Positions 7,718 through 25,488 of a stretch of DNA of 64,000 nt are shown piece by piece. Numbering within the stretch: the stretch's first letter is position 1; every line of letters starts with the position of its first letter. Below the pieces are notes generated by a model. That model saw only the letters and a list, made by a program, of their open reading frames with translations, searched no databases and had not been told where the DNA came from. The translations under genes and the position numbers were made by a program. Source of the DNA: Kaistia defluvii (GTDB lineage: Bacteria > Pseudomonadota > Alphaproteobacteria > Rhizobiales > Kaistiaceae); the NCBI RefSeq assembly GCF_026343955.1, contig NZ_JAPKNI010000002.1, positions 248,001 through 312,000 on the forward strand, written 5' to 3'.

Positions 7718-8518
7718 ATGGCGCCGCGTTCATTCTGGAAAGGCTATCTGAAGCTCTCGCTCGTCACCTGTCCGGTGGCGATGATCCCGGCCACCACCGA
7801 CAATGAAAAGGTGCGTTTTCACACGCTGAACCGCGCCACTGGCAACCGGGTCGTCAGCCAATATGTCGACACGGAAACGGGCGACCTCGTCGAGGATGAT
7901 GATCAGGTCAAGGGCTACCAGCGCGGCGAGCACGAGTTCCTGATGCTGGAGGATGACGAGATCGATTCCGTCGCTCTGGAAAGCACGCGCACGATCGATA
8001 TCGAGATGTTCGTGCCGGCGGATGACATTGACTGGATCTGGTACGACAAGCCGCATTATCTCGTGCCGGACGACCCGGTCGGCGAGGAGGCTTTCTCGGT
8101 CATTCGCGACGCCATGGCCGCGACGGGCACGGTCGGTATTTCCCGCTTGGTCCTCTATCGGCGCGAGCGGGCCGTGATGCTGAAGCCGCGTGACAATGGC
8201 ATCGAACTCTGGACCCTCCACTACGGTGACGAGATCCGCCCGGAGGATGATTATTTCGAGCCGATTGGCGACGCCAAGGCGGATGCGAAGCTGCTGGAAA
8301 TGATGCAGACCCTGATCAGGGAACGCATCAAGACCTGGTCGCCGGCCATGGTGAGCGATCCCGTGCAGGAGCGTCTCCTGGATATCATCGCGGCGAAGAA
8401 GAGGGGCAGGAAGCCCCCGGCCCGCAAGGAAGCGCCGGTCAGCCACGGCAACGTGGTCAGCATCATGGATGCGCTGCGCAAGAGCATCGCTTCCGAGTCC
8501 AAGCCGAAGGGGCGCTGA
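7718..8518 (+). CDS. ku: Ku protein (non-homologous end joining), copy 1
   Basis: This is a 266-residue bacterial Ku, a homodimeric ring that binds DNA double-strand ends and recruits LigD. The family core is clear: start MAPRSFWKGYLKLSLVTCPV, a beta-barrel region with FHTLNRATGNRVVSQYVD, the DDIDWIWYDKPHYLVPDD segment, and a basic C-terminus (AAKKRGRKPP). It is the last gene of a short cluster behind an EcfG-type promoter, and is separate from the second Ku-ligD operon at 17392. Two Ku paralogues in one genome are common in rhizobia. Confidence 0.95.
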   Translation: MAPRSFWKGYLKLSLVTCPVAMIPATTDNEKVRFHTLNRATGNRVVSQYVDTETGDLVEDDDQVKGYQRGEHEFLMLEDDEIDSVALESTRTIDIEMFVPADDIDWIWYDKPHYLVPDDPVGEEAFSVIRDAMAATGTVGISRLVLYRRERAVMLKPRDNGIELWTLHYGDEIRPEDDYFEPIGDAKADAKLLEMMQTLIRERIKTWSPAMVSDPVQERLLDIIAAKKRGRKPPARKEAPVSHGNVVSIMDALRKSIASESKPKGR

Positions 8519-8583: not shown

Positions 8584-9627
8584 TTAGACGCCGTCGGCGA
8601 GCGTAATGATCTTGCCCGTTGCGGCCGCCTCTTCGATCGCCGTCAGCACGCGGGTCACGCGCAGGCCGTCCTGCGCATCGGCCAGCAGCGGCGCGTCATG
8701 CGCGACTGAATCGATGAAGCGGGCGATCGCCTCCATGACGAAGCCGCCGATGCGCCCGCCCGCCGCCGGTGTCACGCCGAGCAGGTCATGGGCCCGCCGG
8801 CCGGAGCCGGTGTATTTGCTGAAGGCGCTGTTCTGCGCCGTGTCGGTCTGGATCGCACCCTTCTCGCCGATGAACTCGAGCCGGAAATCGACGACGCCGG
8901 GCATGTCGCGCGGCAGCACCCAGCTGTTTTCCATCTGGGCGATGGCGCCATTGTCGAATTCGAGGATCGAGAGATGGACGTCGGCGGTATCGACGCCATT
9001 CGACGCCAGGTAGCCGCGCCGCACCATCGCCTGCACCCGCTTCACTTCAGCGCCCATGATGAAGCGCAGCGCGTCGAGCGAATGGCTGCCCAGGAACCAG
9101 AGCGCCGACGAGCGGCCGGCCCAGGACAGCAGGTCATAGGGCACGAACACGGTGTTCGACAGCTTCGCGGAGGCATGCAGCGGCATGCCGATCTCGCCGG
9201 CGGCGATGGCGTCGCGGGCGGCGGCGATGGCCGGGTTCACGCGGTTGTGGAAGTCGACCATCACCTTGACGCCGGCCTTGTCGGCGGCGGCGGCGATCGC
9301 CTCGACCTCGGCCAGCGTGGTCGCGAGCGGCTTCTCGCTCATCACATGCTTGCCGGCCTGGATGGCGGCCAGGACGATGTCGCCATGGGCGAAATCGGGC
9401 GTCGCCACCGTGACGGCGTCGATATCGGGATCGGCCAGCAGCTGACGATAATCGGTATAGGTCTTGGCCGCGCCGAACTGCTTCTGCATGTCGGCGACGC
9501 GGGCGGGGTCGAGATCGCAGACCGCGGCGAGCTCGGCGCCCTCGATGGCGCTCAAGGTCTTGCAATGGAACGAGCCCCAGAGGCCCGCTCCCACCACGCC
9601 GAAGCGAACTTTACGCGATGACGTCAT
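8584..9627 (-). CDS. Gfo/Idh/MocA-family NAD(P)-dependent oxidoreductase
   Basis: This is a 347-residue sugar- or inositol-type dehydrogenase. The N-terminal Rossmann fold shows the dinucleotide motif GVVGAGLWGSFH and the family signature EKPLATTLAEVEAI. The C-terminal alpha/beta domain contains WFLGSHSLDALRFIMGAEV, with the catalytic-region His/Asp. Substrate cannot be read from the sequence. It is the last gene of a leftward operon with two sugar-type permeases and an SBP, so it probably oxidises the imported sugar or sugar derivative. The permease gene ends eight bases upstream. Confidence 0.9.
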   Translation of the reverse strand: MTSSRKVRFGVVGAGLWGSFHCKTLSAIEGAELAAVCDLDPARVADMQKQFGAAKTYTDYRQLLADPDIDAVTVATPDFAHGDIVLAAIQAGKHVMSEKPLATTLAEVEAIAAAADKAGVKVMVDFHNRVNPAIAAARDAIAAGEIGMPLHASAKLSNTVFVPYDLLSWAGRSSALWFLGSHSLDALRFIMGAEVKRVQAMVRRGYLASNGVDTADVHLSILEFDNGAIAQMENSWVLPRDMPGVVDFRLEFIGEKGAIQTDTAQNSAFSKYTGSGRRAHDLLGVTPAAGGRIGGFVMEAIARFIDSVAHDAPLLADAQDGLRVTRVLTAIEEAAATGKIITLADGV

Positions 9628-9634
9628 TTCCGTT

Positions 9635-10468
9635 TTATCCTTTCACGGAACCAAAGGTCAGGCCTCGGACGACATAGCGGTCGAGCACGAGGAAAATCAG
9701 CATGGGGGGGATCATGGCGGCGACGGCGGCCGAGGCGATGAAGCCCCAGGTGACGCCGGCGGTGCCGAAATATTGCAGCGTGCCGACCGGCAGCGTCGTC
9801 GTGCTGCGGTTGGCCAGCACCAGCGGGAAGGCCGCGTTGTTCCACGAGAACACGAAGGCGAACATCGAGGTGACGATCAGGCCCGGCATCACCATCGGCA
9901 GGATGAACTTGAGCAGGATCGTGGTCGTGCCCGCCCCGTCGATGCGCGCCGCTTCCTCGATCTCGATCGGCACCTCGTCGATGAAGCTCCGCATCAGCCA
10001 GACCGAGAACGGAATGGTCAGGGTCTGCGAGATCAGGATCATCGAGAAATACGTCCCCTTCACACCGGCAAGGCTGGCCAGGATCGAGTAGGGGATCAGG
10101 AAGGCGACGGGCGGCGCCATCAGCAGGCCGAGATACCAGAGCATGATGTGCTTGCGGCCGCGGATCTTGTAGCGCGACAGCGCATAGGCCGCCGGGAACG
10201 AGAACGGCAGGTTGAGCGCGACCGCGCCCACCGCGACGATCAGGCTGTTCATCAGCTGCGGCGCGTTGTTGCCGGGGTTGAAGAAGGTGTAGCGGATCGA
10301 TTCCCAGTTGGGCGTGAAGGACAGGACCGGCGGCATGGCGAAATAGGTTTCCGCCGGCCGGATCGCGAGCAGCACGAACCAGAGGATCGGGCCGATGAAG
10401 ATCAGCAGCAGCAGCCCCATGGCCGCATAGCCGAGCAGCCGGCCGGCGACGCTTTCCGAGCCTTCCAT
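9635..10468 (-). CDS. Carbohydrate ABC transporter permease (MalG-like)
   Basis: This is a 277-residue inner-membrane permease with six predicted helices and the EAA loop EEAARIDGAGTTTILLKFIL that docks the ATPase. It starts MEGSESVAGRLLGYAAMGLLLLIF. It lies one base from the end of the MalF-like partner gene, so the two are co-translated. No ATP-binding subunit is encoded in this operon; a shared MsmX/UgpC-type ATPase elsewhere is likely. Confidence 0.92.
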   Translation of the reverse strand: MEGSESVAGRLLGYAAMGLLLLIFIGPILWFVLLAIRPAETYFAMPPVLSFTPNWESIRYTFFNPGNNAPQLMNSLIVAVGAVALNLPFSFPAAYALSRYKIRGRKHIMLWYLGLLMAPPVAFLIPYSILASLAGVKGTYFSMILISQTLTIPFSVWLMRSFIDEVPIEIEEAARIDGAGTTTILLKFILPMVMPGLIVTSMFAFVFSWNNAAFPLVLANRSTTTLPVGTLQYFGTAGVTWGFIASAAVAAMIPPMLIFLVLDRYVVRGLTFGSVKG

Positions 10469-10469
10469 A

Positions 10470-11384
10470 TCAATCCCAATCCTTGAACGCGAAGAAGACG
10501 AAGAGGCCGATGATGGCGTTGACGACGATGACCATCATCCACGTCATGGCGCTGGAGAGGCCGATGTTGAAATCGACCATGCCGGCTTGATAGAGGCTGT
10601 AGCCAAGCGTCCGGCTCGACGTTCCCGGCCCGCCCTTGGTGAGCACCACGACCAGGTCGAAGGTGTTGAAGATCTGCATGAAGCGCAGCATCACCACGAT
10701 CATCGCCGTCTTGCGGATGAGCGGCAGCTTGATGTGCAGCAACTGCTTCCAGGGCGTGATGCCATCGATCTTCGCCGCCTCGACGATCTCGCCGGGCACG
10801 GCGAGCAGGGCGGCATAGAGCACGATGGCAAAGAACGGGGTCCACTGCCAGATATCGGCGAACAGCACTGCCCAGAGCGCCGTCGACGGCGAGCCGAGCA
10901 GACCGGCGGCCGGCAACGGGATGCCTGCCGAGGTCAGTAGCCAGGGGATCAGCCCGCCATTGGGATCATACATGTAGCGGAACAGGAAACCGACCACGAT
11001 CGGCGCAATGGTCGTCGGCATGATCAGCAGCACGCGGGTCAGCTTGATGCCGCGCAGCTTGCGCAGGAGCAGGAGCGCGATGGCGAGGCCGAGCGTGAAT
11101 TCCACCACCGTGCCGACGACGGTCATCATCAGCGTCGTCTTCAGCGAGTCGAGGAACATGCCGTTCGACAACGCCATCCTGTAGTTGTCGAAGCCGATGA
11201 AACCCATCGGCGAGGGGCCCATCTGCAGGTTCCAGAAGTAGAAGCTGTTCTTGAGCGCGAACAGCAGCGGGAACGCGATCAGCGCCACCAGCAGCAGGAT
11301 GGACGGGCTGATCAGCAGCCACGGCGTGTAATCGGGCAAGCGCCGTCGCGCCCGCGGCGGCGTGGCGATGGATACTGCGGACAT
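10470..11384 (-). CDS. Carbohydrate ABC transporter permease (MalF-like)
   Basis: This is a 304-residue permease from the ATG at 11384. After a short basic N-terminus comes the first helix (WLLISPSILLLVALIAFPLLFAL), the periplasmic FIGFDNYRMAL segment typical of MalF/UgpA proteins, and the EAA loop EIVEAAKIDGITPWKQ. The frame is open upstream into the SBP gene, but that part is a shadow of it. The gene is separated from the SBP by ~150 bases with three hairpins. Confidence 0.92.
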   Translation of the reverse strand: MSAVSIATPPRARRRLPDYTPWLLISPSILLLVALIAFPLLFALKNSFYFWNLQMGPSPMGFIGFDNYRMALSNGMFLDSLKTTLMMTVVGTVVEFTLGLAIALLLLRKLRGIKLTRVLLIMPTTIAPIVVGFLFRYMYDPNGGLIPWLLTSAGIPLPAAGLLGSPSTALWAVLFADIWQWTPFFAIVLYAALLAVPGEIVEAAKIDGITPWKQLLHIKLPLIRKTAMIVVMLRFMQIFNTFDLVVVLTKGGPGTSSRTLGYSLYQAGMVDFNIGLSSAMTWMMVIVVNAIIGLFVFFAFKDWD

Positions 11385-11403
11385 GGACGCTCCAATGGAA
11401 AAG

Positions 11404-11524
11404 AGAGTGGACGGGGCCGGGAGGGAAGTCCCGTCCACTCTTTGTCGAGCAAAGATCTTGGGCTCTTTGCTCTCAGGTAGAGGCTCTGCTTGAAGCCGGA
11501 ACCGCCTGGCAGGGAGGTTCCGGC
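11404..11524 (-). repeat. Cluster of three hairpins between SBP and first permease gene
   Basis: Three perfect inverted repeats occupy the SBP-permease gap: a 9-bp stem at 11495-11503/11516-11524 beside the SBP stop, a 9-bp stem at 11447-11455/11464-11472, and a 12-bp stem at 11404-11415/11430-11441. On the minus strand the last is followed by CTTTT and could partly terminate. This arrangement typically gives more SBP than permease mRNA. Confidence 0.7.
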
Positions 11525-11536
11525 CGGCCGCCGGAC

Positions 11537-12985
11537 TTAGGCGAGCGACTTGAGCAGGCTCTTGGTCGCGTCCAGCGTATCGTTGAACGATGCCTGCTGG
11601 TACGGGATCAGGAAGTTGCCCTTGAGGATGGTCTCGAAGAAGGTCGAGGTATCCGAGAGGCAGGCCTCGGGCGTCAGCTGGCCGGTCAGGACCTTGTTGA
11701 GGTTGAGGCCGTAAATGCCTTCGAGCGTCGTGTAGACCGGCACCGGCGGGCGGACGATCTTGCCGTTGCCGCGCTCCAGATCGCCGAGCTGGGCGGTCAG
11801 GTGCGGGTAGATCTTCAGCAACTCGGCATCCTTGTAGAGCGACGGCCGGGCGAAGTCGGAGAACTGGTAGCCATACTTGTTGTAGAGGCCCATCGCCTTC
11901 TGCGTCTTGGCCGATGTCGCCCATTTGACGAACTGCCAGGAGGCGTCGCGATTGGCGGTGTTGGCGGTGATGCCGAGGCTGTGGCCGCCGAGCGACACGA
12001 CCTGTTCACCCGGGCCCTTGGGCAGGCGTGCGATGCCGAGCTTGTCGGCGACGACCGAGTCCTTGCCGCTCATATAGCCGTCCTTCTTGCAAAGGTAGGC
12101 ATAGGGCGTCCACCAGTAGAACATGCCGACATCGCCCTTGGCGAAGCGCATGCCGGCGTCGAACCAGTTGTAGCCGACCGATTCAGCCGGCGCGTTCTTG
12201 TAGAGCTCGGCGAAGATCTTCAGCGCGGCGAGGTTTTCCGGGCTGTTGATGGTGGGCTGGAAATCCCAGGCCGTCGCGGCCGGGAAGTCCTTGAACCAGC
12301 GCGTGCCCATGCTGGCGGCGAGCTGCGAATACATGTGCACGACGGGGGCGGGCTGCTGTCCTGCCAGCACGGTGCCGCTCATCTTGTGGCCGTCGAAATC
12401 CTGGCCGTTCATCTTCTGCACGGCGGCGAGATAGTCGTTCCACGACCAGCTGCCATCCTCCGGCACGGCGATGCCGGCCTTGTCGGCGAAATCCTTGCGG
12501 TAGAGCACCATCTGGCCATAGGCGGCGACCGGCAGCGTGCCGATCTGGCCACGCCAGGTATTCAGCGAGTAGAGCACCTCGGGGATGTAGTCCTCGATAT
12601 GCGTGTCGCTATCCGCCTTGATGAACTCGTTGAGCGGGGTGATCCACTTGCTCTCGAGATACTGGCCGAGCCACATCTGGTCGACCGAAATGACGTCGGC
12701 GTCCGGCTCGTTGCTGATGAAGGACGAGGTCAGGCGCGCCTGCAGCGCCTCGAGCGAGATCGCCTCGATCTGCAGCTTGATGCCGGTTTCCTGCTCGAAC
12801 TGGTCCTTCAACCCCTCGATCGCATAGTAGAACGGGTCGCCGGCAAGCAGAACGCGCAAGGTCTTGTCGGCAGCCATGGCACGGCGCGGCATCAACCCGC
12901 CGCCGATAGCCGCGGTGCCAGCAAGCGCTGCGCTGCTTTTCAGCAGGCTTCGACGCGAAAGATTGAAATCGAATCCAGACTTCAT
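11537..12985 (-). CDS. Extracellular solute-binding protein, family 1 (sugar type), Tat-exported
   Basis: This is a 482-residue periplasmic binding protein delivering a carbohydrate-like ligand to the adjacent permeases. The start at 12985 (MKSGFDFNLSRR) is preceded by AGGAGAG and gives a twin-arginine signal (SRRSLLKSSAALAG, hydrophobic core, AMAADK cleavage region). The mature part begins KTLRVLLAGDPFYYAIEGL and carries the family-1 features VISVDQMWLGQYLE and KGDVGMFYWWTPYAY. The upstream in-frame extension to 13144 lacks signal-peptide logic. First gene of the operon, divergent from the ROK regulator across 299 bases. Confidence 0.92.
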   Translation of the reverse strand: MKSGFDFNLSRRSLLKSSAALAGTAAIGGGLMPRRAMAADKTLRVLLAGDPFYYAIEGLKDQFEQETGIKLQIEAISLEALQARLTSSFISNEPDADVISVDQMWLGQYLESKWITPLNEFIKADSDTHIEDYIPEVLYSLNTWRGQIGTLPVAAYGQMVLYRKDFADKAGIAVPEDGSWSWNDYLAAVQKMNGQDFDGHKMSGTVLAGQQPAPVVHMYSQLAASMGTRWFKDFPAATAWDFQPTINSPENLAALKIFAELYKNAPAESVGYNWFDAGMRFAKGDVGMFYWWTPYAYLCKKDGYMSGKDSVVADKLGIARLPKGPGEQVVSLGGHSLGITANTANRDASWQFVKWATSAKTQKAMGLYNKYGYQFSDFARPSLYKDAELLKIYPHLTAQLGDLERGNGKIVRPPVPVYTTLEGIYGLNLNKVLTGQLTPEACLSDTSTFFETILKGNFLIPYQQASFNDTLDATKSLLKSLA

Positions 12986-13284
12986 GTTCCCACTCTCCTC
13001 TTGGAAGCATTGTCCGGCGCCAGATCCATGACTGGCGCTCGTTGAGCACGACGAGCACGGCTGCTTACTGGCCGCTGCAGCCTCGGTTCCCATCGAAGGC
13101 TGTGGCGGCGACCGGATCGTCTTGTTAGTATGAGGCTCGCACAAACATTTTAACTCGTCAACGACCCGATGATCGGCTAAGAATTAATTCGGAGGTCGGA
13201 CTGGCAGCGCGCGCACCCAGCCGAGTTTCCGTATAGGAAGCGGAGGGCCGGCCATCCGGTCGCCGCGAGCACAACGAGGGCAGC
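12986..13284. promoter_or_regulatory. Divergent control region between SBP operon and ROK regulator
   Basis: This 299-base stretch holds no convincing gene. It separates the leftward transporter operon from the rightward regulator and must contain both promoters. The segment 13120-13190 is locally AT-rich (GTTAGTATGAGG, AACATTTTAAC, AAGAATTAATTC) and is the best candidate for promoter and ROK operator, but I cannot define a clear symmetrical operator. Confidence 0.4.
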
Positions 13285-14535
13285 TTGGAGCGCGAACCTT
13301 CCACCCAGCGTTGGTCCATGGACGAGGAAGATGTCTCCGGCGACGTGCGGATGGTGCCGCATGGCCGGTCGCTGCTGTCGTCCTCGATGGTCGGGTCCGC
13401 CAATCGGGGGCGGGTGCTGCAGACGCTGTTCGATCTCGGCCCGACCAGCCGGGCGGAGCTGGCGCGACTGGCCGGCGTCAACCGCACCACCATTTCCGGC
13501 ATCGTCCAGCCTTTGCTCGACCAGCAGGTGCTGGTGGAGGGGGAGCCGATCCGGCCGAGCGAGGCAGGCGGCAAGCCGGCGCGGCCACTGTGGTTTTCAC
13601 CGGATGCCCGGCCGATCTGCGGCATGATGCTGATGCCGGACGCGGTCCATACCTGCCTCGTCACCCTGGCCGGCACCCTCTCGGCCGAGCACAGCGTGCG
13701 GTTTCCGGATAATCCGAAGATCGCCGATATCGAGCGCGCCATCGAGCGCTGCACCTCGCGCACCCTGGCTTCCGCCCGGCGCGAGCCGCTCGGCATCGGG
13801 GTTGCGGTCGGCGGCATGGTCGACACCGATCGCCGCGCCATCATCGCCGTCAACCTGGCGCCGGTGATGAATGGCTTCGAGCTCGGCGACATGCTGGCTC
13901 GACGCTACGGCCTGCCGGCTTTGCTCGACCATCATCCGCGTGCCCTGCTGGTCGGCGATCGCTGGTTCGGCAAGGGGCGCGGCATGCAGAATTTCGCCGC
14001 TGTCTATACCGGCGAGGTGCTCGGCGGCGCGCTCTATCTCGGCGGCCATCTCTATCGCGGTCGCAGCGGCGCCGGCGGCGAACTCGGCCATACCTTCGTG
14101 CAGGTCGATGGCGAGATCTGTTCCTGCGGCCGGCGCGGCTGCTGGGAGACGATCGCGACCGTGGGCTGGCTGCGCCGCCAGGCGCGCGCCATCGGCATCG
14201 ACGCGCCCGACGAGATCAATTCGCGCCGCCTGGTCGCCCTGGCCGGCGCGGGCGCGCCGGGCGCGCGCGACCTGCTCGATCTCTACGCCCGCAACGTCGC
14301 CGTCGGCATCGCCAATCTGCAGCAGACCGTGGCGCCGAATTTCTACGTTTTGCACGGCGACGTCGTCGGCGGCGGGGAAATCATGGCCGAGGCGATTGCG
14401 GGACATGTCCGCGCGCTCGTACCATCGCGCAGCGGGGGAGAAATCAGCTTCGCGATCGGGGAGACGGAAGACCGCGCAGCGCTGCTGGGCGCGGCCGGTC
14501 TTGTCTTGTCGGAGTTGCTTCAGTTTCCATTGTAG
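13285..14535 (+). CDS. ROK-family transcriptional regulator
   Basis: This is a ~416-residue repressor-type ROK protein. It has an N-terminal winged helix (SRAELARLAGVNRTTISGIVQPL, split here as SRAELARLAG and VNRTTISGIV), then a sugar-kinase-like domain with GIGVAVGGMVD, the GRSGAGGELGH stretch and the ROK zinc motif CSCGRRGCWE. It probably binds a sugar or phosphosugar and controls the divergent transporter operon and the genes behind it. Start: a TTG at 13285 has GAGGG upstream; an ATG at 13318 would shorten the protein by 11 residues. The next gene starts 23 bases downstream. Confidence 0.92.
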   Translation: MEREPSTQRWSMDEEDVSGDVRMVPHGRSLLSSSMVGSANRGRVLQTLFDLGPTSRAELARLAGVNRTTISGIVQPLLDQQVLVEGEPIRPSEAGGKPARPLWFSPDARPICGMMLMPDAVHTCLVTLAGTLSAEHSVRFPDNPKIADIERAIERCTSRTLASARREPLGIGVAVGGMVDTDRRAIIAVNLAPVMNGFELGDMLARRYGLPALLDHHPRALLVGDRWFGKGRGMQNFAAVYTGEVLGGALYLGGHLYRGRSGAGGELGHTFVQVDGEICSCGRRGCWETIATVGWLRRQARAIGIDAPDEINSRRLVALAGAGAPGARDLLDLYARNVAVGIANLQQTVAPNFYVLHGDVVGGGEIMAEAIAGHVRALVPSRSGGEISFAIGETEDRAALLGAAGLVLSELLQFPL

Positions 14536-14558
14536 GGTTCGACGCAGGGGGAGTGCTC

Positions 14559-14879
14559 ATGGTCTACAAGATCGATCCGGAGATAGATCGACACTACATC
14601 GAGGAGTTCCGGCAGAAGCCGATCGGCGCGCACAGCCCCGGCCTGCAGCGGCTTCTCAATACCATGCGCCACGACCCTTCCGGCAAGCAGGTGGTGCTGG
14701 TCTGCAAGCGCCCGTTCGAGGAATGGGTGCTGGGGCTGATGCCGGCCGATCGTCGCGAACCGATCGCGATCGAGGACGGACCCGTCTTCACCGACATCGA
14801 AGAGGCGGAATGGGAAGTCTTCCGTCGCCGCTGGCGCCTGCTGACAGGCGAAAGCATCAACCGGCCGCTTCGCGACTGA
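14559..14879 (+). CDS. N,N-dimethylformamidase small-subunit-like protein
   Basis: This is a 106-residue soluble protein with a strong ribosome site (GGGGGAG) before the ATG. It contains HSPGLQRLLNTMR, then GKQVVLVCKRPFEEW and DIEEAEWEVFRRRW. Its size, its position directly before a dimethylformamidase-like large subunit and this central pattern match what is known of the DMFase small (alpha) subunit, which wraps around the catalytic subunit. I base the call on remembered family features and on context rather than on an alignment. It lies 23 bases after the ROK gene and 70 bases before the large subunit, so all three may be one operon. Confidence 0.65.
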   Translation: MVYKIDPEIDRHYIEEFRQKPIGAHSPGLQRLLNTMRHDPSGKQVVLVCKRPFEEWVLGLMPADRREPIAIEDGPVFTDIEEAEWEVFRRRWRLLTGESINRPLRD

Positions 14880-14949
14880 CCCTTCCCGTTCGAATCGCCG
14901 ATCGCTGCCACAGCGATCCCGTTTCCTGCGCCAATCCGGATTTCATTCC

Positions 14950-17211
14950 ATGCTCAAGATCGTCGGCTATCCCGACCGCTACAGCGTCGCCCCGGGCGAA
15001 GAGATCGCCTTCAAGATTTCACTGGAGGAAGGCGAGACCTTCGAGGCGCGGCTGGTCCGCGTCGTCAATGGCGACTGCAATCCCGCCGGCCCCGGCCTGA
15101 AGTTTCCCCACATCCCGACCGAGATCGACGGCATTCACGCCGGCAAGCCGCAGCGCATCGACGCCGGCTCCTACATGGTGGCCACGGAACTGCCGGCGGT
15201 GGCCGCTCAGACCTTCTCCTTCCTCGGCTTCGTCTGGCCGACGATGCCCGGACGCGGCGAGCAGGTGATCGCGGCGCAATGGGATCCCGCGACCCAGGCC
15301 GGCTTCCAGATCGGCATCGGCGACGAGGGCCGGCTTTCGCTGACGGTCGGCGACGGCAGCGGCGGCACCGAGACGGTCCGCGTCGATCATCCGATGCTGG
15401 AGCGCCAATGGTACCAGATCGCGGTCACCTTCGATCCGCCCAGCGGCGAGTTCACGCTCGACCAGCGTCCGCTCATCCCCTATGCGGTCGTCCGCGACCA
15501 TGGCCAGTATCGCGGCCGCATTCGCCTGGAAGTGCAGGCGCCGCCGGTCGCCTTCTATCTCGCCGGCCGCCCCGATAGCGACGGCACGGTCGGCCATCAT
15601 TTCGATGGCAAGATCGACGGTCCGATCCTGCTTTCGGGTGTGCGCACCCATGCCGATCATGATGGCCTGCTGGCTGGCAGCGCGCCGCAGGACGTGGTGA
15701 CGGCGCGGATCGCCCATTGGGATTTTTCCCGCGAGATCGAAAGCGTCAACGCCATCGACATCGGCCCGTCCGGCCGGCATGGCCGGCTGATGCAGATGCC
15801 GGCCCGCGCCATGAAGGGCCACAACTGGACCGGCGAGGAACAGGCCTGGCCGAACAAGCCCGAGCATTACGGCGCGGTGCATTTCCACCATGACGACATC
15901 TATGACGCGCAGTGGGAGACCTCGGTCTCGCTGAGCATCCCGGACGATCTGAAGAGCGGCGCCTATGCGCTGCATGCCTGGTCGGGCGACAGCGACGAGA
16001 CCGCGACGCGCGAGACCTACATTCCCTTCTTCGTCCGCCCGCCGCGCGACAAGGCGAAGCGCGGCAAGCGCCCGCCCGTCCTGGTGCTGGCGCCGACCAT
16101 GTCCTACCTCTCCTATTGCAACCACGCCGAGCACATCACGGCGCGCGGCGCGGAGCGGCAGATGGGCCGGCTGCTGACCTTCGGCCATACCGACCTCTAC
16201 ATGTACGACCACCCCGAACTCGGCGGTTCGCATTACGACACCCATGCCGACGGCTCGGGCGTCTGCTATTCGAGCCGCCTGCGGCCGAACCTCAACTTCT
16301 CGCCGCGCTATCATTCCTGGCTCGGCGGTCCCGGTTCGGCGCTCTACCAGTACAATGCCGACACGCATCTTTTCGACTGGCTCGACCACAAGGGCGTCGA
16401 CTACGACCTGATCACCGACGAGGACCTGCACGAGGAGGGCTATGACCTTCTCGCCGATTATCGCATCGTCATCACGGGCACCCATCCCGAATATCATTCG
16501 ACGGCGATGTGGGACGGGATGAAGGCGTGGATCGATCGCGGCGGCCGGCTCATGTATATGGGCGGCAATGGCTGGTACTGGCGCATCGGATTCCACAAGA
16601 CGGAGCCCGGCGTCATCGAGGTGCGGCGCGCCGAGGACGGCATCCGCACCTGGGCGGCCGAGCCCGGCGAATATTACCAGTCGTTCAACGGCGAGTTCGG
16701 TGGCCTGTGGCGGCGCATCGGCCGGGCGCCGAACGTCATGGCCGGCGTCGGCTTCATCGCCCAGGGCTTCGACATCTCGACCTTCTACCGGCGGGCGCCC
16801 GACGCGGACCATCCGCGCGCGGCCTTCATCTTCAAGGATGTGCCGGACGAAATCATCGGCGATTTCGGCCTGGTTGGCGGCGGCGCGGCGGGCATCGAGC
16901 TCGATTGCATCTCGGCCAATCTCGGCGGCCCCCCCAACATGCTGCGGCTCGCCTCGTCGGACGGCCACAGCGCCATGATGATGCTGGTCAACGAGGAATT
17001 CGGCGTCGTGCCGCCCAATCTCGGCGGTGACCAGAACGAGCGCGTGCATGCGGATCTCGCCTTCGGCGAAACGCCCTCGGGCGGCGCGCTTTTCGCCACG
17101 TCGTCGATCGCCTGGTGCGGCTCGCTCTCGCACAACGACTATGACAACAACGTCTCGCGCATCACCTGGAACGTGCTCGAGCGCTTCCTGGACGAGACGC
17201 CGTTCGTCTAG
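14950..17211 (+). CDS. N,N-dimethylformamidase large-subunit-like amidohydrolase
   Basis: This is a 753-residue soluble protein, close to the ~760 of characterised DMFase catalytic subunits, which hydrolyse dimethylformamide to dimethylamine and formate at a mononuclear iron held by two Tyr and one Glu. Residues ~85-230 look like a LamG/concanavalin beta-sandwich (AQTFSFLGFVWPTMPGRGE, WYQIAVTFDPPSGEF). The C-terminal catalytic part has APTMSYLSYCNHAEH (Tyr386/Tyr389), HYDTHADGSGVCYSSRLRP (Tyr429/Tyr440) and ITGTHPEYHS (Glu514), which are candidate iron ligands; the exact ones need alignment. No signal peptide, so cytoplasmic. Its link with a sugar-type transporter suggests the natural substrate may be an N-substituted amide of a larger compound rather than dimethylformamide. 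Confidence 0.8.
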   Translation: MLKIVGYPDRYSVAPGEEIAFKISLEEGETFEARLVRVVNGDCNPAGPGLKFPHIPTEIDGIHAGKPQRIDAGSYMVATELPAVAAQTFSFLGFVWPTMPGRGEQVIAAQWDPATQAGFQIGIGDEGRLSLTVGDGSGGTETVRVDHPMLERQWYQIAVTFDPPSGEFTLDQRPLIPYAVVRDHGQYRGRIRLEVQAPPVAFYLAGRPDSDGTVGHHFDGKIDGPILLSGVRTHADHDGLLAGSAPQDVVTARIAHWDFSREIESVNAIDIGPSGRHGRLMQMPARAMKGHNWTGEEQAWPNKPEHYGAVHFHHDDIYDAQWETSVSLSIPDDLKSGAYALHAWSGDSDETATRETYIPFFVRPPRDKAKRGKRPPVLVLAPTMSYLSYCNHAEHITARGAERQMGRLLTFGHTDLYMYDHPELGGSHYDTHADGSGVCYSSRLRPNLNFSPRYHSWLGGPGSALYQYNADTHLFDWLDHKGVDYDLITDEDLHEEGYDLLADYRIVITGTHPEYHSTAMWDGMKAWIDRGGRLMYMGGNGWYWRIGFHKTEPGVIEVRRAEDGIRTWAAEPGEYYQSFNGEFGGLWRRIGRAPNVMAGVGFIAQGFDISTFYRRAPDADHPRAAFIFKDVPDEIIGDFGLVGGGAAGIELDCISANLGGPPNMLRLASSDGHSAMMMLVNEEFGVVPPNLGGDQNERVHADLAFGETPSGGALFATSSIAWCGSLSHNDYDNNVSRITWNVLERFLDETPFV

Positions 17212-17325: not shown

Positions 17326-17391
17326 GGACTCTCCGTTCGCACCCCTTGCTAGGGTTGGCGGATCGTTCGGTGGTGCGTGGGAGTACGGAAG

Positions 17392-18258
17392 ATGGCTCCA
17401 AGGGCTATATGGAAGGGCTACCTCAAGGTCGCCGAGATCCTCTGTCCGGTGGCGCTGCACACCGCCGCTTCGACCTCCGACCGGATCGCTTTTCACACCC
17501 TCAATCGCGCCACCGGCCACCGTATCCGGCGTCAATTCGTCGACCAGGATACCGGCAAGCCCGTCGAGGCCGACGAGCAGATCAAGGGCTACGAGATCGC
17601 CGCCGGGGAATATGTCGAGATCGACCCCGAGGAAATCGCCGCCGCGACGCCCGAAAGCGACAAGACGCTGGCGGTCGAGACCTTCCTGAAGCTGGATCAG
17701 GTCGACGATGCTTATTTCGATCGGCCCTACTACCTGACGCCCGCCGATAAGGCGGCCATGGAGGCCTTCGTGCTGATCCGCGACGGCATGCGCAGGAGCG
17801 GGGCCGTGGCGATTGCCCGCGCCGTCCTGTTCCGCCGCATGCGCAGCGTCTTGATCCGGCCCGATGAGGAGGGACTGGTCGCAACGACTCTGAGCTTCGA
17901 CTACGCCGTTCGCCCGGCGCGCGAAGCGTTCGATCCGATCCCGAAGCTGAAGATCGAAGGCGAGATGCTGGAGCTCGCCAAGCACATCATCGAGACCAAG
18001 CGCGGCACCTTCGACCCCGCTGCCTTCGACGATCGCTACGAGGCGGCCCTGGCCGATCTGGTCAAGGCCAAGCTCGAAGGCAAGACCTTCAAGGCGCCGC
18101 CGCCGCGCAAGACCGCCAAGGTGGTCGACCTGATGGCGGCGCTGCGCGAAAGTGCAGGTGTGAAGGCCAAGGAGACCGTCCCGGCCAAGGCCAAGACCGC
18201 GAGCAAGAGCAAGACGGCGGCCAAGCCGGCGGCCGCGCCGCGCCGCAAGGCAAGCTGA
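17392..18258 (+). CDS. ku: Ku protein, copy 2 (LigD-linked)
   Basis: This is a 288-residue Ku. The start at the ATG 17392 (MAPRAIWKGYLKVAEILCPV) aligns with the other Ku; the in-frame GTG at 17377 is less likely. The barrel region has AFHTLNRATGHRIRRQFVD and the DAYFDRPYYLTPADK segment. The C-terminus is a long Lys/Ala tail (AKAKTASKSKTAAKPAAAPR), typical of Ku proteins that contact DNA beyond the core. The stop is one base from the ligD start, so Ku and LigD are made together. Confidence 0.96.
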   Translation: MAPRAIWKGYLKVAEILCPVALHTAASTSDRIAFHTLNRATGHRIRRQFVDQDTGKPVEADEQIKGYEIAAGEYVEIDPEEIAAATPESDKTLAVETFLKLDQVDDAYFDRPYYLTPADKAAMEAFVLIRDGMRRSGAVAIARAVLFRRMRSVLIRPDEEGLVATTLSFDYAVRPAREAFDPIPKLKIEGEMLELAKHIIETKRGTFDPAAFDDRYEAALADLVKAKLEGKTFKAPPPRKTAKVVDLMAALRESAGVKAKETVPAKAKTASKSKTAAKPAAAPRRKAS

Positions 18259-18259
18259 C

Positions 18260-21019
18260 ATGGCCGCGCCGCTCGAAGTCTATCGCAGCAAGCGCGATTT
18301 CAAGGTCACCGCCGAGCCGGCGGGAGGCAAGGCCTCCCGGAGAGGCAAGGCGACGAAGGGTCAGGCAGCGGGGCATAGTTTCGTCATCCAGAAGCATGAT
18401 GCGAGGCGGCTGCACTACGACTTCCGCCTGGAGATGGACGGCGTCCTGAAAAGCTGGGCCGTCACCCGGGGGCCAAGCCTGGATCCTTCGGAGAAGCGCC
18501 TTGCCGTGCATGTCGAGGACCACCCGCTCGAATATGGCGGCTTCGAAGGCACCATTCCGAAGGGCGAGTATGGCGGTGGCACCGTGCTCGTCTGGGACCG
18601 TGGCAGCTGGGAACCGGTCGGTGACCCGCACAAGGGCTACGCCAAGGGGCATCTGGAGTTCGAGCTTAAGGGCGAGAAGCTGCATGGCCGCTGGCATCTC
18701 GTGAAGATGCATGGCCGGCCCGGCGAGAAGCGCGAGAACTGGCTGCTGATCAAGGCGGAGGATGAGGCCGCCCGTCCTTCCGGCGCGCCGGATATTCTGG
18801 AGGAAATGCCGGATTCGGTGAAGAGCGGGCGCGCGCTGGAAGATGTCGAGGGCGAAGAGCCCGGCTGGTCGTCCAAGACCGGCAAGATCGAGCGCGACCA
18901 GGGCGAGGCGGACAAGGCCAAGCCCGCCCGCAACCCCCGGGCGAAGGCAAAGCCCGAGGCCCAGGCAAAGCCGGTGGTAAAGGCCAGGCCTTCGAGCAAA
19001 GCCAAAGCGCCGGCCAAAGCCAAGGCCGCCGTAAAGGAGGTTTCGGCAAAGACCGAACCGGCATCGGAGGGCGAAGCGGAACCCCCGCCGTCACTTCCGG
19101 ACCCCGCCCAGTTCGAGGGCGCCAGGAAGATGGCCATGCCGGCCTCCATAGAGCCGGAATTGGCGACGCTCACTGACGCGCCGCCCGCCGGCGAGCGCTG
19201 GATCCACGAGATCAAGTTCGACGGCTACCGGCTGCTCGCGCATGTCGCGGCCGGACGGGTCAAGCTGCTCACCCGCACCGGCCTCGACTGGACCAAGAAG
19301 TTCGGCAAGGAGGTCGCCGGCGCGCTGCAGGCGCTGCCGATCGGCACGGCCTGGATCGACGGCGAACTGGTGGTCGAGACGGATGGCGGCGCGTCGGATT
19401 TTTCGGCGCTGCAGGCCGATCTGAGTGAGGGGCGCTCGGATCGCTTCGTGTTCTATGTCTTCGACCTGCTCTATCTCGATGGCTACGATCTTCGCGACTT
19501 GCCCCTTACCCAGCGCCAGCAACTACTGGCCCAGGTCGTGGCGCAGGCTGGGCCCTGCCTGCGCCTCAGCCAGCATTTCGAGGAGGAAGGCGCTGTGGTG
19601 TTTCGCCATGCGAGCCGGCTCGGCCTCGAAGGCATCGTCTCCAAGGTCGCGGATTCACCCTATCGTTCGGGTCGCAGCAAGAGTTGGCTGAAGACGAAGA
19701 GTTCGAAGCGGCAGGAATTCGTCATCGGAGGCTATGTGCCGTCGACGACCTCGCGTCGCGCCATCGGTTCGCTGGTGCTGGGCGTGCAGGAGGGCGGCGC
19801 GCTTCAGCATGTCGGCCGCGTCGGCACTGGCTTTTCCGCGAGCGTGGCGGAGGATCTGTTCAAGACGCTCGAAAGGATGCGGACCAGCGAAAGTCCGTTC
19901 GGCTCGCCGCTCACGACGGAGGAGGGGCGAAAGGTTCGTTTCGTCCGGCCGGATCTGGTTGCCGAGGTCGAGTTTCGCGCCTGGACGGCGGATGGTCATC
20001 TCCGCCATGCTTCCTTCCGCGGCCTGCGCGAGGACAAGCCGGCCGTCGAGATTACCCGGGAGACCGCTGCCATGGATGAGAAGCCGGCGAGCAAGAAGAA
20101 GCCTGCGCGGGGAGAACCCGCGCGCTCAACCGTCAAGCTGACCCATCCCGACCGCGTGTATTGGCCGGATGCGGGGGTCACCAAGCAGGGGCTCGCCGAC
20201 TACTATGCCGAGATCTGGCCCTCGATCGCGCCCTATATCACCCACCGGCCCCTGTCATTGCTGCGCTGTCCGAGTGGCATCACGGGCGAGCAGTTCTTCC
20301 AGAAGAACGCCTGGAAGGGTCTGAACGAGGCGATCGTGCTGGTCGACGACCCGTCGACCCGGGACATCGAGCAGTTGATCAGCATCGAGGATCTCGACGG
20401 GCTGACGGCGCTGGTCCAATCGGCCGTGCTCGAAATCCATCCCTGGGGCTCGACGCTCGACGCCTGGGAGAAGCCGGACATGATCATCCTGGACCTCGAT
20501 CCCGGCGAGGGTATCGACTGGCAGGCCGTGATCGACGCGGCGCAGGAGGTTCGGCAGAGGCTGGCCGATGCGGGGCTCGACGCATTCGTGAAGACATCCG
20601 GCGGCAAGGGGCTGCACGTCGTGGCGCCGCTCGCGCCCAAGGCCGAATGGCCCGAGATCAAGGCCTTCACCAAGGGGCTTGCCGACGCGATGGCCTCCGA
20701 CAGCCCGGATCTCTACGTCTCGACCATCAGCAAGGCCAAGCGCCCCGGCAAGATCCTGATCGACTATCTGCGCAACCAGCGCGGCCAGACGGCGGTGGCG
20801 CCCTATTCGACCCGTGCGCGCCCTGGCGCGCCGGTCTCAGCGCCGCTCGCCTGGGAGGAATTGAGCCCGGCGATCGGGCCGGCCTACTTCACGGTTCTCA
20901 ACATGCCGACCCGTCTAGCCTCGCTCGGTACCGATCCCTGGGCCGACTTTCGCAAGGCGGCCAAGCCGCTGGAGATCGCTCCGGCCGGCAAAAAGAAGGT
21001 CCGGGCGCCCAAGAAGTAG
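18260..21019 (+). CDS. ligD: Multifunctional NHEJ ligase LigD (PE-ligase-polymerase)
   Basis: This is a 919-residue ATP-dependent DNA ligase D that processes, fills and seals Ku-bound ends. Domain order is: phosphoesterase (residues ~38-190; HDARRLHYDFRLE with His46, His52, Asp54, then His88), a Lys/Ala/Pro-rich linker (~200-285), ligase (~295-590; adenylation Lys319 in KFDGYR), a second short Lys-rich linker, and an AEP-type polymerase (~635-905; LDLDPGEG with Asp745 and Asp747). This is the Pseudomonas-type order, not the mycobacterial one. All three active sites look intact. It is co-transcribed with ku behind the predicted stress promoter. Confidence 0.97.
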   Translation: MAAPLEVYRSKRDFKVTAEPAGGKASRRGKATKGQAAGHSFVIQKHDARRLHYDFRLEMDGVLKSWAVTRGPSLDPSEKRLAVHVEDHPLEYGGFEGTIPKGEYGGGTVLVWDRGSWEPVGDPHKGYAKGHLEFELKGEKLHGRWHLVKMHGRPGEKRENWLLIKAEDEAARPSGAPDILEEMPDSVKSGRALEDVEGEEPGWSSKTGKIERDQGEADKAKPARNPRAKAKPEAQAKPVVKARPSSKAKAPAKAKAAVKEVSAKTEPASEGEAEPPPSLPDPAQFEGARKMAMPASIEPELATLTDAPPAGERWIHEIKFDGYRLLAHVAAGRVKLLTRTGLDWTKKFGKEVAGALQALPIGTAWIDGELVVETDGGASDFSALQADLSEGRSDRFVFYVFDLLYLDGYDLRDLPLTQRQQLLAQVVAQAGPCLRLSQHFEEEGAVVFRHASRLGLEGIVSKVADSPYRSGRSKSWLKTKSSKRQEFVIGGYVPSTTSRRAIGSLVLGVQEGGALQHVGRVGTGFSASVAEDLFKTLERMRTSESPFGSPLTTEEGRKVRFVRPDLVAEVEFRAWTADGHLRHASFRGLREDKPAVEITRETAAMDEKPASKKKPARGEPARSTVKLTHPDRVYWPDAGVTKQGLADYYAEIWPSIAPYITHRPLSLLRCPSGITGEQFFQKNAWKGLNEAIVLVDDPSTRDIEQLISIEDLDGLTALVQSAVLEIHPWGSTLDAWEKPDMIILDLDPGEGIDWQAVIDAAQEVRQRLADAGLDAFVKTSGGKGLHVVAPLAPKAEWPEIKAFTKGLADAMASDSPDLYVSTISKAKRPGKILIDYLRNQRGQTAVAPYSTRARPGAPVSAPLAWEELSPAIGPAYFTVLNMPTRLASLGTDPWADFRKAAKPLEIAPAGKKKVRAPKK

Positions 21020-21201: not shown

Positions 21202-22155
21202 CTACTTCACCGCGCCGGCCGTCAAGCCCTTGACGATGTAGCGCTCCAGGAAGATGCCGACGATGGCGAGCGGCGCGATCGCGGCCGTCGAGAGCGCGGC
21301 CATCGACCACCAGTTGATGCCCTGCGATCCGGTCTGGCTCGCCACCATCACCGGCAGCGTGTTGGCGTTGGTCGAGGTCAGCAGGGCGGCGAAGAAATAC
21401 TCGTTCCAGCAGAGCACCACCGACAGGATGAAGGCGGCGACCATGCCCGGCAGCGAGATCGGCAGCACGATGCGCATGAACGCGCCCCAGGTGGAGCAGC
21501 CGTCGACGAGGGCCGCCTGTTCGAGCTCGACGGGAATGCCGCGGAACTGGTCGCGCATGATCCAAATGACGATCGGCAGCACCATCAGCGTGTAGACGAC
21601 GATGAGGCCGATGCGAGTGTCGAGCAGCGCCAGTTCCTTGTAGAGAACGAGGAACGGCATGGCGAGCACGACGGGCGGCAGGATCAGCTGCGACAGGAAG
21701 AAGAACGAGATGTCGCGGTTGCGCCAGATCGCGAACTTGTAGTCGAAGCGGACCAGGCCGTAGGCGGCGAGCGAGCCGAGGATGACGGCCAGCAGCGAGG
21801 CGCCGATCGACATGATGGCCGAGTTCAGGAAGCGCTTCATGAACTCTTCGCGCACCGTGGAGGTGCTGAAGATCGTATCCGGAGACAGGCCGATCGAGCG
21901 CCAGCCACGCCAGTCGGGCGTGTAGTCGTACCAGGGAATCATGTGGCCCTGGGTGACGTCGACGGCGACCTTGAACGACGTCGTGATGGTCCAGTAGATC
22001 GGGAACAGCGCGATGAAGGTCCACAGGATCAGCAGCGTGTAGATCGCCACCTTGCCGGCGATGCGCTTCGAATTGCTGACGAGCTCGCTCGGCGGTTCGC
22101 GGTAGGCTTGATAGCGGGGGGCCATGGCGTTTTGTGCTTTCATGCTCGTGGCCAT
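21202..22155 (-). CDS. Carbohydrate ABC transporter permease (MalG-like)
   Basis: This is a 317-residue permease with about six helices and the EAA loop EQAALVDGCSTWGAFMRIVL. It ends KGLTAGAVK, a common ending of MalG-type proteins. The start at 22155 overlaps the stop of the preceding permease by one base (TAATG); a second ATG at 22143 is also possible. Last gene of a leftward SBP-permease-permease operon with no ATPase. Confidence 0.92.
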   Translation of the reverse strand: MATSMKAQNAMAPRYQAYREPPSELVSNSKRIAGKVAIYTLLILWTFIALFPIYWTITTSFKVAVDVTQGHMIPWYDYTPDWRGWRSIGLSPDTIFSTSTVREEFMKRFLNSAIMSIGASLLAVILGSLAAYGLVRFDYKFAIWRNRDISFFFLSQLILPPVVLAMPFLVLYKELALLDTRIGLIVVYTLMVLPIVIWIMRDQFRGIPVELEQAALVDGCSTWGAFMRIVLPISLPGMVAAFILSVVLCWNEYFFAALLTSTNANTLPVMVASQTGSQGINWWSMAALSTAAIAPLAIVGIFLERYIVKGLTAGAVK

Positions 22156-23270
22156 TATCCGGTCACCCGCTTCATCCAGCGGCTGGAACCCCAGAGCAGC
22201 AGGGCGATGAACAGGGCGATCAGGATGAAATAGAACTCCGCCACCATGGTGCCGTAGCCGACATTCGAACGGTCGCGATATTCGCGGAAGATGAAGCTCG
22301 ATACGGTGTCGGTCGAGCCGCCGGGCCCACCCGAGGTCACGGTGATGACGATGTCGGCCAGCTTCAGCTGGAAGATGACGCGGATGATGATGGCGGTGAT
22401 CGAAACCGGCAGCATCAGCGGAAAAACGATCTGCCAGAACGAGCGCCAGCCATTGGCGCCGTCAACCTTGGCTGCCTCCATGATTTCCTTGGGCAGCGCC
22501 TGCAGACCGGCGAGCAACAGGATCATCACGAACGGGATCCAGACCCAGGCATCCATCGCCATGATCGAGAAGCGGGCGATCCAGGGCGAGGCGAAGAATG
22601 CGGGGCTCTCCCAGCCGAGATGGCGCGCGAGGGTAGCGGCAGGGCCGAAGCGGTATTCCATCAGCGACTTGCCGACCATCCAGCCGACGGCGACCGGGCT
22701 CAGCATGAAGGGCATCAGGAAGGCGACGCGGAAGAATTTTCGCGCGCGGATTTCGGCGTTGAGGAGAAGCGCCAGGCCGAAGGCGATGGCGTATTGCAGC
22801 AGCACCGCCAGCACATAGAAGCCCATGTTGCGCAGCGCGTTCCAGAAATAGCCGTCGTTCATCAGCGCCCAGAAATTGGCGAGGCCGTTGAACGAGCGGC
22901 CCTCGAACGACGCGAGGTTCCAGTCGGTGAAGGCGATGTAGAGGCCGGCGATGGTGGGGAAGATCACCACGGCGACGGTGAACAGGATTGCCGGCAGTAC
23001 GAACAGCGCCCGTTTGCCGCCCTCGCCACGGATCATCACCTGGCCGACGCCGAGGGCGACGCCCCAGGCGAGATAGGCGTAGAGGACCGGACGCCAGTTG
23101 GCGAAGCCGGTTTCCGTCTGGCCGGCGGCGTACAGAATCTGGAACAGGACGATGGCGGCGAGCGCGAGCGTCGCCAGCGTGATCAGCCACTTGCCCGCCG
23201 CGCGGCGCGCGGGCGGTATGTCGTGCGTGGCGATCAGGTCCTGCGGCGCGGCAACTTGGGACGTCTGCAT
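22155..23270 (-). CDS. Sugar ABC transporter permease (MalF-like) with extra N-terminal helices
   Basis: This is a permease of 371 residues if it starts at 23270 (MQTSQVAAPQDLIATHD); the frame is open to 23351, and neither start has a clear ribosome site. Two N-terminal hydrophobic segments (LITLATLALAAIVLFQILYA and VLYAYLAWGVALGVGQVMI) precede the usual core that begins KRALFVLPAILFTVAVVIFP. The EAA loop is EIMEAAKVDGANGWRSFWQI. The extra pair of helices is a recurrent variation in MalF-type permeases. Paired with the MalG-like gene and the SBP on either side. Confidence 0.9.
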   Translation of the reverse strand: MQTSQVAAPQDLIATHDIPPARRAAGKWLITLATLALAAIVLFQILYAAGQTETGFANWRPVLYAYLAWGVALGVGQVMIRGEGGKRALFVLPAILFTVAVVIFPTIAGLYIAFTDWNLASFEGRSFNGLANFWALMNDGYFWNALRNMGFYVLAVLLQYAIAFGLALLLNAEIRARKFFRVAFLMPFMLSPVAVGWMVGKSLMEYRFGPAATLARHLGWESPAFFASPWIARFSIMAMDAWVWIPFVMILLLAGLQALPKEIMEAAKVDGANGWRSFWQIVFPLMLPVSITAIIIRVIFQLKLADIVITVTSGGPGGSTDTVSSFIFREYRDRSNVGYGTMVAEFYFILIALFIALLLWGSSRWMKRVTG

Positions 23271-23420
23271 AGAGGTTTGCTCATCAATGAACGTCGCGGA
23301 CGACGCTCCCAGAAAAAACCGGCTGGCGACGCATTCGCGCCGCCAGCCCATTACGTTCCGCTGGCATGTCCGCCGGCTTGCGGCCGATGGACGGTCTCCC
23401 GGCCCTGGGGCCGAAGAACC

Positions 23421-23446
23421 GCCTGCTGGCCCCGGAGCCGGCAGGC
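23421..23446 (-). repeat. Intercistronic hairpin after SBP gene
   Basis: GCCTGCTGGC / GCCGGCAGGC form a 10-bp stem with one T-G pair and a 6-base loop, eight bases after the SBP stop. There is no U-run. It probably protects the SBP message from 3' decay or attenuates permease expression. Confidence 0.65.
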
Positions 23447-23453
23447 GCCAGGC

Positions 23454-25130: not shown

Positions 25131-25356
25131 GAAAATCCTCCCGATTGAGACGACGTTTCGGTGATTGCCGCTGCTGGTGCCGGACCGTTGGACGGTTCAT
25201 CTGGCGAGCGCGTGCATTCACCTTCCTCCATGCAGCCTCGCGGCGGCACAATTCCCGATCTGGCCGGCGTTGCGCGAAGGATGCGCCTGCCGGGCTGGGC
25301 AACAACAAAAGCGGCAATCGCAGGCGGCGTCAACGGGTAAGTTTTTCTTCCTTGCA

Positions 25357-25386
25357 TTTTGCTTTTCATACATGAAAAAAGCAAAA
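25357..25386. promoter_or_regulatory. AT-rich palindrome, candidate operator upstream of the SBP operon
   Basis: TTTTGCTTTTCAT and ATGAAAAAAGCAAAA form an imperfect inverted repeat centred on an AC step, with inner arms TTTCAT/ATGAAA. It lies in the 358-base gap between the ribokinase stop and the SBP start, about 230 bases before the SBP. The rest of this gap shows no gene. Low GC and lack of a T-run argue for a protein-binding site rather than a terminator. Confidence 0.5.
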
Positions 25387-25488
25387 AGTATGGAAGCAAT
25401 ACTATCTGCCTCTGCGATATTCAAAGATTGCTGCTATCTTCGCTTGCTCGGCGCCCGTGCGGACTTCACAGGTGCCGGATCTGCCGCC

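Follow-up and report, generated by a model that had tools for sequence, protein, structure and literature searches.

Dimethylformamidase (DMFase) is known from the breakdown of a synthetic solvent. Both the Paracoccus enzyme (parDMFase, PDB entry 6lvb) and DmfA1-DmfA2 of plasmid pAMI2 consist of two subunits, encoded in the order small-large, with two tyrosines and a glutamate accompanied by an essential histidine. PMC7686228 gives the iron ligands of parDMFase as Y399, Y440 and E521 and the essential residue as H519, calls this iron-site architecture unique, and suggests that the side chain of F693 is what makes larger amides poor substrates. The pAMI2 genes are found with a LuxR-type regulator and insertion sequence (IS) elements on a plasmid, and PMC10308929 mentions a gene annotated as DMFase within a rhodopsin gene cluster. 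Here we describe a DMFase-like gene pair in Kaistia defluvii (contig NZ_JAPKNI010000002.1, positions 248,001 to 312,000; this whole stretch of 64,000 nucleotides is called the window), which instead lies among sugar genes, with a sugar transporter and a ROK regulator. The locus also connects this type of enzyme to the BtpA/SgcQ family; the substrates and functions of E. coli sgcABCEQX were called not established in July 2026, and SgcABCEQX is induced under nitrogen-containing conditions, according to PMC13343008.

The DMFase-like pair and its predicted iron site

By homology, the pair very probably encodes a DMFase-type alpha/beta iron amidohydrolase, as an earlier note made from the letters of this DNA had proposed. 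Pfam finds DMFA2_C (PF20254) at residues 286-733 of the 753-residue large protein (E 1.4e-89; 301.6 bits against a cut-off of 27) and a LamG-like Laminin_G_3 region at residues 74-170 (E 6.9e-7; 30.0 bits against 27.6). When compared with the PDB using phmmer, residues 3-751 matched parDMFase 6lvb (E 1.2e-153, 517 bits) and residues 1-747 matched, with a similar score, entry 8huy, named as an N-acetyl-(R)-beta-phenylalanine acylase (E 6e-151, 508 bits), in which the ligands are likewise kept. In the alignment, Y399, Y440, E521 and H519 of parDMFase correspond to Y389, Y429, E514 and H512 of the window protein, the register being fixed because chains 6lvd and 6lve differ from 6lvb at Y440 and E521. 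These four columns are invariant in all 47 rows of an alignment of open reading frames (ORFs) of at least 600 aa with a long match, drawn from the loci compared (46 are distinct and one is a repeat of the window; the pAMI2 DMFase is included), and the ligand columns are also invariant in a smaller alignment (10/10 rows). N540, equivalent to N547 of parDMFase, is Asn in 42 of the 47 rows and Asp in the other five. The length, the LamG-like domain and the Tyr/Tyr/Glu candidates listed in the earlier note were all recovered, and the alignment to the Paracoccus enzyme that it suggested found the ligands in place. The match to the DMFase family, with its kept ligands, is far beyond chance, and from it we predict a mononuclear iron with two tyrosines and a glutamate as its ligands. 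The large protein aligns nearly end to end with DMFase; an AlphaFold model of it built from 10 sequences was of low confidence (mean predicted local distance difference test score, pLDDT, 58.7) and was discarded as too poor.

The small gene, for which the ATG lies five bases after a GGGGGAG stretch and the ORF is open from a GTG at 14553 as well, begins 23 bases after the end of the ROK gene and is separated from the large gene by 70 bases. Its product has no Pfam or NCBIfam match at E <= 0.001 and no phmmer match in the PDB at E <= 10. However, comparison of a nine-sequence small-subunit profile with DmfA1 of pAMI2 using hhalign gave an E value of 4.7e-7 and a probability of 92.5, blastp aligned the two proteins at 28% identity over 88 aa, and the three top-ranked fold matches to an AlphaFold model of moderate confidence (mean pLDDT 72.8) were 6lvb_B, 6lvv_B and 6lvd_B, all of them DMFase entries, with E < 0.001 for the first only. 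The small gene is therefore a homologue of the DMFase small subunit, as profile and fold comparison both indicate. Relative to DmfA1, its product is missing some 30 residues close to the N-terminus.

Relatives of the large subunit are common: amongst 397 genomes from the order to which Kaistia belongs, a match at E <= 1e-3 occurs in 91 and, by hand count of the same table, one at E <= 1e-90 in 68, whilst the clade that includes the window protein (59-100% identity) is present in 15 and is a small part of the family. The earlier note had placed DMFases in solvent-degrading strains; the family is not confined to them, as both the 68 genomes and the naming of 8huy as an acylase indicate. The window clade forms a single branch on a long stem in a midpoint-rooted FastTree phylogeny of the 47 rows. 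There are 25 columns invariant in the 21 clade rows and rare in the 25 other rows, seven of which fall at 394-417, beside the ligand Y389, and four at 681-694, these two stretches having been chosen after the column list was seen. The latter is the loop in which parDMFase carries F693, the residue that closes its pocket. At this position the window has V686, and the clade rows together have Val in 17, Pro in three and Ile in one; Phe is found in five of the 25 other rows. Hence the window protein, about 39% identical to the pAMI2 large subunit, lacks the Phe that goes with small N-alkyl formamide substrates in a DMFase in the narrow sense. We infer that this separate clade may be specialised for an amide-bearing, polar, sugar-like substrate.

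The conserved sugar-type locus

The features of the locus are listed in Table 1. The ROK gene, the first of a ROK-small-large unit, and the sugar-type ABC transporter genes, which are accompanied by that of a Gfo/Idh/MocA dehydrogenase, diverge around a palindromic site. The coordinates given in the earlier note are correct.

Table 1. Features of the DMFase-like locus, in window coordinates
Feature	Position	Strand	Evidence or remark
Gfo/Idh/MocA-family dehydrogenase	8584-9627	-	Pfam GFO_IDH_MocA
ABC permease 2	9635-10468	-	Pfam BPD_transp_1
ABC permease 1	10470-11384	-	Pfam BPD_transp_1; start predicted from the 304-aa relative in locus L054
Solute-binding protein, sugar-type ABC transporter	11537-12985	-	Pfam SBP_bac_1, E 5.5e-33; start predicted from sequence
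Candidate ROK operator TGTTAGTATGAGGCTCGCACAAACA, imperfect palindrome, 25 bp	13123-13147	.	Between the divergent units; conserved block
ROK-family regulator	13318-14535	+	Pfam ROK, E 4.9e-39; ORF open from 13285, start predicted
DMFase-like small (alpha) subunit, 106 aa	14559-14879	+	Profile, blastp, fold match
DMFase-like large (beta) subunit, 753 aa	14950-17211	+	Pfam, PDB matches, ligand conservation

An alignment of the gap between the ROK and solute-binding protein genes (13 rows from 12 genomes, G150 appearing twice; G and L numbers are our handles for genomes and loci) contains one strongly conserved block, which coincides with the palindrome and reads approximately TGTTWGT-N11-ACAAACA in Kaistia, with substitutions at both ends outside the genus. 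It is the single site in the whole genome when up to three mismatches are allowed, a reversed-pattern control giving none, and is likely to be the local operator of the ROK protein. HVO_A0261_N, at the N-terminus of the latter, scores 24.8 bits, under its cut-off of 35. The transporter is presumably of the CUT1 class; TAT_signal in its solute-binding protein scores 22.0 bits, just under the cut-off of 22.7. The best curated NCBIfam model for the dehydrogenase is inositol 2-dehydrogenase (TIGR04380), at 167.6 bits far under the cut-off of 355. In the divergent unit at 8584-12985 we saw no ATPase gene, while the orthologous units of G247, G198, G121 and G150 include one next to that for the dehydrogenase.

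The neighbourhood was compared by tblastn across 21 clade loci, the window included, eight being of the Kaistia type and 13 from outside the genus. The SDR, DeoR, BtpA, FGGY and HAD queries were drawn from L005, L006 and L008, which consequently match themselves or near copies, and gene calls at unannotated loci are crude choices of ORF, some of them shadow ORFs, such that loci read by eye may hide genes. A homologue of the small gene was found in 21/21 loci. Orthologues of the ROK, solute-binding, both permease and Gfo/Idh/MocA genes at 60% identity or more accompany it in 12, namely all eight Kaistia-type loci and those of G247, G150, G121 and G198; in the other 11 of these, the solute-binding proteins are 72-99% and the dehydrogenases 73-99% identical to those of the window. 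A sugar-type locus is thus shown to be conserved around the DMFase-like pair, which answers the check on conserved linkage that the earlier note had proposed.

BtpA and FGGY genes do not adjoin the pair at the window. The 13 clade loci outside the genus have FGGY in 12, DeoR in 11, BtpA in ten, SDR (at least 60% identity) in ten and HAD in nine, and locus L010, from a metagenome-assembled genome, has a different FGGY gene (29%). By Pfam and NCBIfam these partners are BtpA/SgcQ (TIGR00259, above cut-off), an FGGY kinase (best model XylB, below cut-off), a HAD phosphatase, an SDR and a DeoR regulator. Both gene sets meet in G247, G198, G121 and G150, where the ATPase and Gfo/Idh/MocA genes, with window-type permeases, solute-binding protein and ROK, stand beside an SDR gene and the series DeoR-BtpA-FGGY-HAD-small-large. 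Eight more distant DMFase-like loci (40-48% identity) all have a small-subunit homologue, and three have weak SDR matches (33-36%); in the fetched stretches they contain no ROK, solute-binding protein, Gfo/Idh/MocA, DeoR, BtpA, FGGY or HAD gene.

Two further genes adjoin the large gene at individual loci. An AAC(3)-IV aminoglycoside acetyltransferase gene (above the NCBIfam cut-off) lies directly 3' of it in two (L005:12275-13054 and L006:12425-13213), and may encode a sugar-amine acetyltransferase. A conserved ORF is convergent with it in three genomes (L044:7893-8846, and cluster c36 in L043 and L045); neither the L044 copy nor the copy beside the large gene in G121 has a Pfam or NCBIfam match.

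Proposed pathway and alternative explanations

The explanation that we favour, and regard as reasonably probable as a whole, is a two-Tyr-one-Glu iron amidohydrolase that acts on a sugar with an amide bond and supplies a kinase/BtpA pathway; on present evidence an amide-bearing sugar is also the likelier kind of substrate. It would be imported by the divergent sugar-type ABC transporter, with import and amidase co-regulated by the ROK protein through one operator, the conserved site being its presumed binding site. The DMFase-type enzyme would cut the amide of the imported sugar, the sugar part of which would be oxidised by the Gfo/Idh/MocA and, at other loci, SDR dehydrogenases and phosphorylated by an FGGY kinase, with BtpA/SgcQ acting on the phosphorylated product, in an order that is our best guess. 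The route of import, cleavage and oxidation suggested in the earlier note is therefore incomplete: since FGGY kinase, BtpA/SgcQ, SDR and HAD phosphatase genes are linked with the pair elsewhere, phosphorylation and a BtpA step probably belong to it too. More tentatively, and with the odds rather against it, we propose an undescribed catabolism of amide sugars that combines such an amidohydrolase with FGGY and BtpA/SgcQ, the amide-cutting enzyme (DMFase type, amidase or gamma-glutamyltransferase type) being exchangeable according to the acyl group. If this were true, the DMFase fold and the SgcQ family would each gain a natural role. Searches of an open-access library, judged by title and the start of the abstract, showed no proposal of a natural sugar role for dimethylformamidase, and no pathway with BtpA/SgcQ and FGGY together was found there; PMC11801797, on sialic-acid transport, was considered as a link to dimethylformamidase and not used, its main text lacking the term. 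A PDB search with BtpA yielded three weak matches and no lead. Ordinary ligand screens could be used to seek the natural substrate, because candidates for its transporter, regulator, operator and downstream enzymes are all provided by the conserved locus.

The exchangeability of the amide-cutting enzyme is suggested by 16 BtpA-FGGY loci outside Kaistia, read by hand, which share the core partners of most clade loci outside the genus (BtpA/SgcQ, FGGY, SDR, DeoR) but have no DMFase-like pair in the parts that were read. In seven of them an amide-cleaving gene lies no more than about 5 kb away: an amidase-signature enzyme in L128 and L129, a gamma-glutamyltransferase-family gene in L108, L110 and L123, an amidase and an allophanate hydrolase, with oxalurate genes further off, in L109, and an asparaginase in L111. 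L123, on plasmid pRLN4 of R. leguminosarum, has two biuret-hydrolase-like genes (below the model cut-off) and an allophanate hydrolase gene directly before BtpA-FGGY, the gamma-glutamyltransferase-family gene coming after. A PIG-L deacetylase gene is found near an FGGY-less BtpA in Sinorhizobium fredii (L126), and the DMFase-linked loci of G015 and G293 have an amidase and an M20-family gene as well.

An acetamido-sugar-like substrate, which the earlier note had suggested, gains some support from G071 (L049, L138) and G231 (L048, L139). The order in G071 is BtpA-FGGY-small-large-Gfo/Idh/MocA-threonine dehydratase-NanE-NanK-like kinase, followed by one reversed gene and then a second FGGY, a SIS isomerase, NagB and NagA; NanE, NagB, NagA and threonine dehydratase are above their NCBIfam cut-offs and the NanK models below. 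G231 has dehydratase-type, NanE and ROK genes by Pfam, with the remaining order the same as in G071 by blast and eye. All of the NanK, NanE, NagA and NagB kinds known from sialic acid and N-acetylmannosamine catabolism are thus clustered with the DMFase-like pair in G071, and the gene sets favour a hexosamine-type substrate at these two loci. Such genes were not seen at the window locus, where no sialic acid lyase gene was recognised, without an aimed search. That the enzyme replaces NagA was rejected for G071, in which NagA itself is present.

Several observations weigh against this scheme. FGGY, BtpA, DeoR and HAD are absent from all eight Kaistia-type loci, the window among them, in the stretches compared; since the partners are missing next door, the FGGY/BtpA link for Kaistia-type loci rests on other genomes. 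The window genome does have a DeoR-BtpA pair (contig C12, 623 kb) and an SDR-DeoR-FGGY group (contig C1, 256 kb) outside the window, their BtpA and FGGY being 81% and 61% identical to the DMFase-linked copies of L008 and L005. However, homologues of both occur in 12/12 genomes searched (11 from Kaistia itself, plus G087), including five Kaistia that lack the DMFase clade. As FGGY is present in 5/5 of these relatives, it provides no evidence for a DMFase link inside Kaistia, and as a linked partner there it was rejected, the tree having it inherited in the genus with or without the pair. In the trees, the BtpA sequences linked to DMFase do not group as a single clade, nor do the FGGY sequences linked to it, hence the partners did not simply travel together. 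In the BtpA tree, six DMFase-bearing Kaistia genomes carry another type of BtpA than three DMFase-lacking ones; the support for the grouping is weak (0.60), and one of the six, G334, has the other type too. Some clade loci are close relatives (L005/L008, G150/G121/G198, G231/G071), as are L108/L110 and L128/L129 amongst the 16 loci without the pair, for which there was no null model. In L131, L132 and L134 of that set an amidohydrolase- or amidase-like gene lies only at greater distance, and hand reading of L124, L125, L127, L130, L133 and L137 noticed no amide hydrolase.

The closeness of the 8huy acylase score (508 bits) to that of DMFase (517 bits) suggests another reading, that the enzyme frees an amino acid from a conjugate with a sugar acid, or from another N-acyl amino acid, with the sugar genes acting on the remaining half or on a compound imported alongside. 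Among the more distant DMFase-like genes, two have annotated D-amino-acid dehydrogenase and aminotransferase genes as neighbours, one of the two being near an alanine racemase gene as well; in G071 a threonine dehydratase gene, above its NCBIfam cut-off, comes immediately after that for the dehydrogenase; and L010 contains both an M20-family gene and one weakly resembling BhcC (85.5 bits against a cut-off of 690). However, the neighbours identified amongst the part of the ORFs scanned at the Kaistia, G247, G198, G121 and G150 loci are sugar genes, and we consider this reading rather unlikely. There is a smaller chance still that the enzyme acts on an N-glycosyl amide or ureide, a nucleoside-like breakdown product from which BtpA or spontaneous loss of ammonia would free the sugar after the amide is cut. 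The BtpA-FGGY operons of R. leguminosarum pRLN4 and Salipiger adjoin isochorismatase-family genes (biuret-hydrolase-like in L123, below cut-off) and allophanate hydrolase genes, that of Salipiger oxalurate genes too; yet no such ureide gene was recognised at DMFase-linked loci, though no search was aimed at them, and free triuret can account for triuret and biuret genes, as PMC7948467 indicates.

A plain hydrolase of dimethylformamide or small N-alkyl amides, of the solvent type and in a sugar locus by chance, would share its subunit plan, ligands and sequence family with DMFase, as the window pair does. It is nevertheless very improbable, given the identity of about 39% to the pAMI2 enzyme, the replacement of F693 in 21/21 clade rows and the conserved sugar linkage. 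The amidase genes might alternatively be passengers that merely share a promoter with a ROK regulator and transporter handling an ordinary sugar, which the location of the Kaistia FGGY and BtpA homologues elsewhere, under DeoR-type regulators, could be taken to suggest. This is scarcely credible, as different genera keep the amidase genes in the same region as those for the transporter and ROK, and the genome contains just one match to the candidate operator.

Wider surroundings in the window

Two Ku genes (7718-8518 and 17377-18258) enclose the sugar/amidase locus, and beyond the second is a multi-domain DNA ligase D gene (18260-21019), all three identified using Pfam; Ku and LigD homologues flank the locus in L002, L003 and L004 as well. 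A second transporter-like set follows at 21202-26427, composed of two BPD_transp_1 permeases (21202-23351), a 558-aa ORF with no Pfam match (23454-25130), which may be the binding protein of this set, and a PfkB kinase gene (25489-26427). Homologues of the second set are found near the first in L003; in L002 and L004 this holds for the permeases and the 558-aa ORF.

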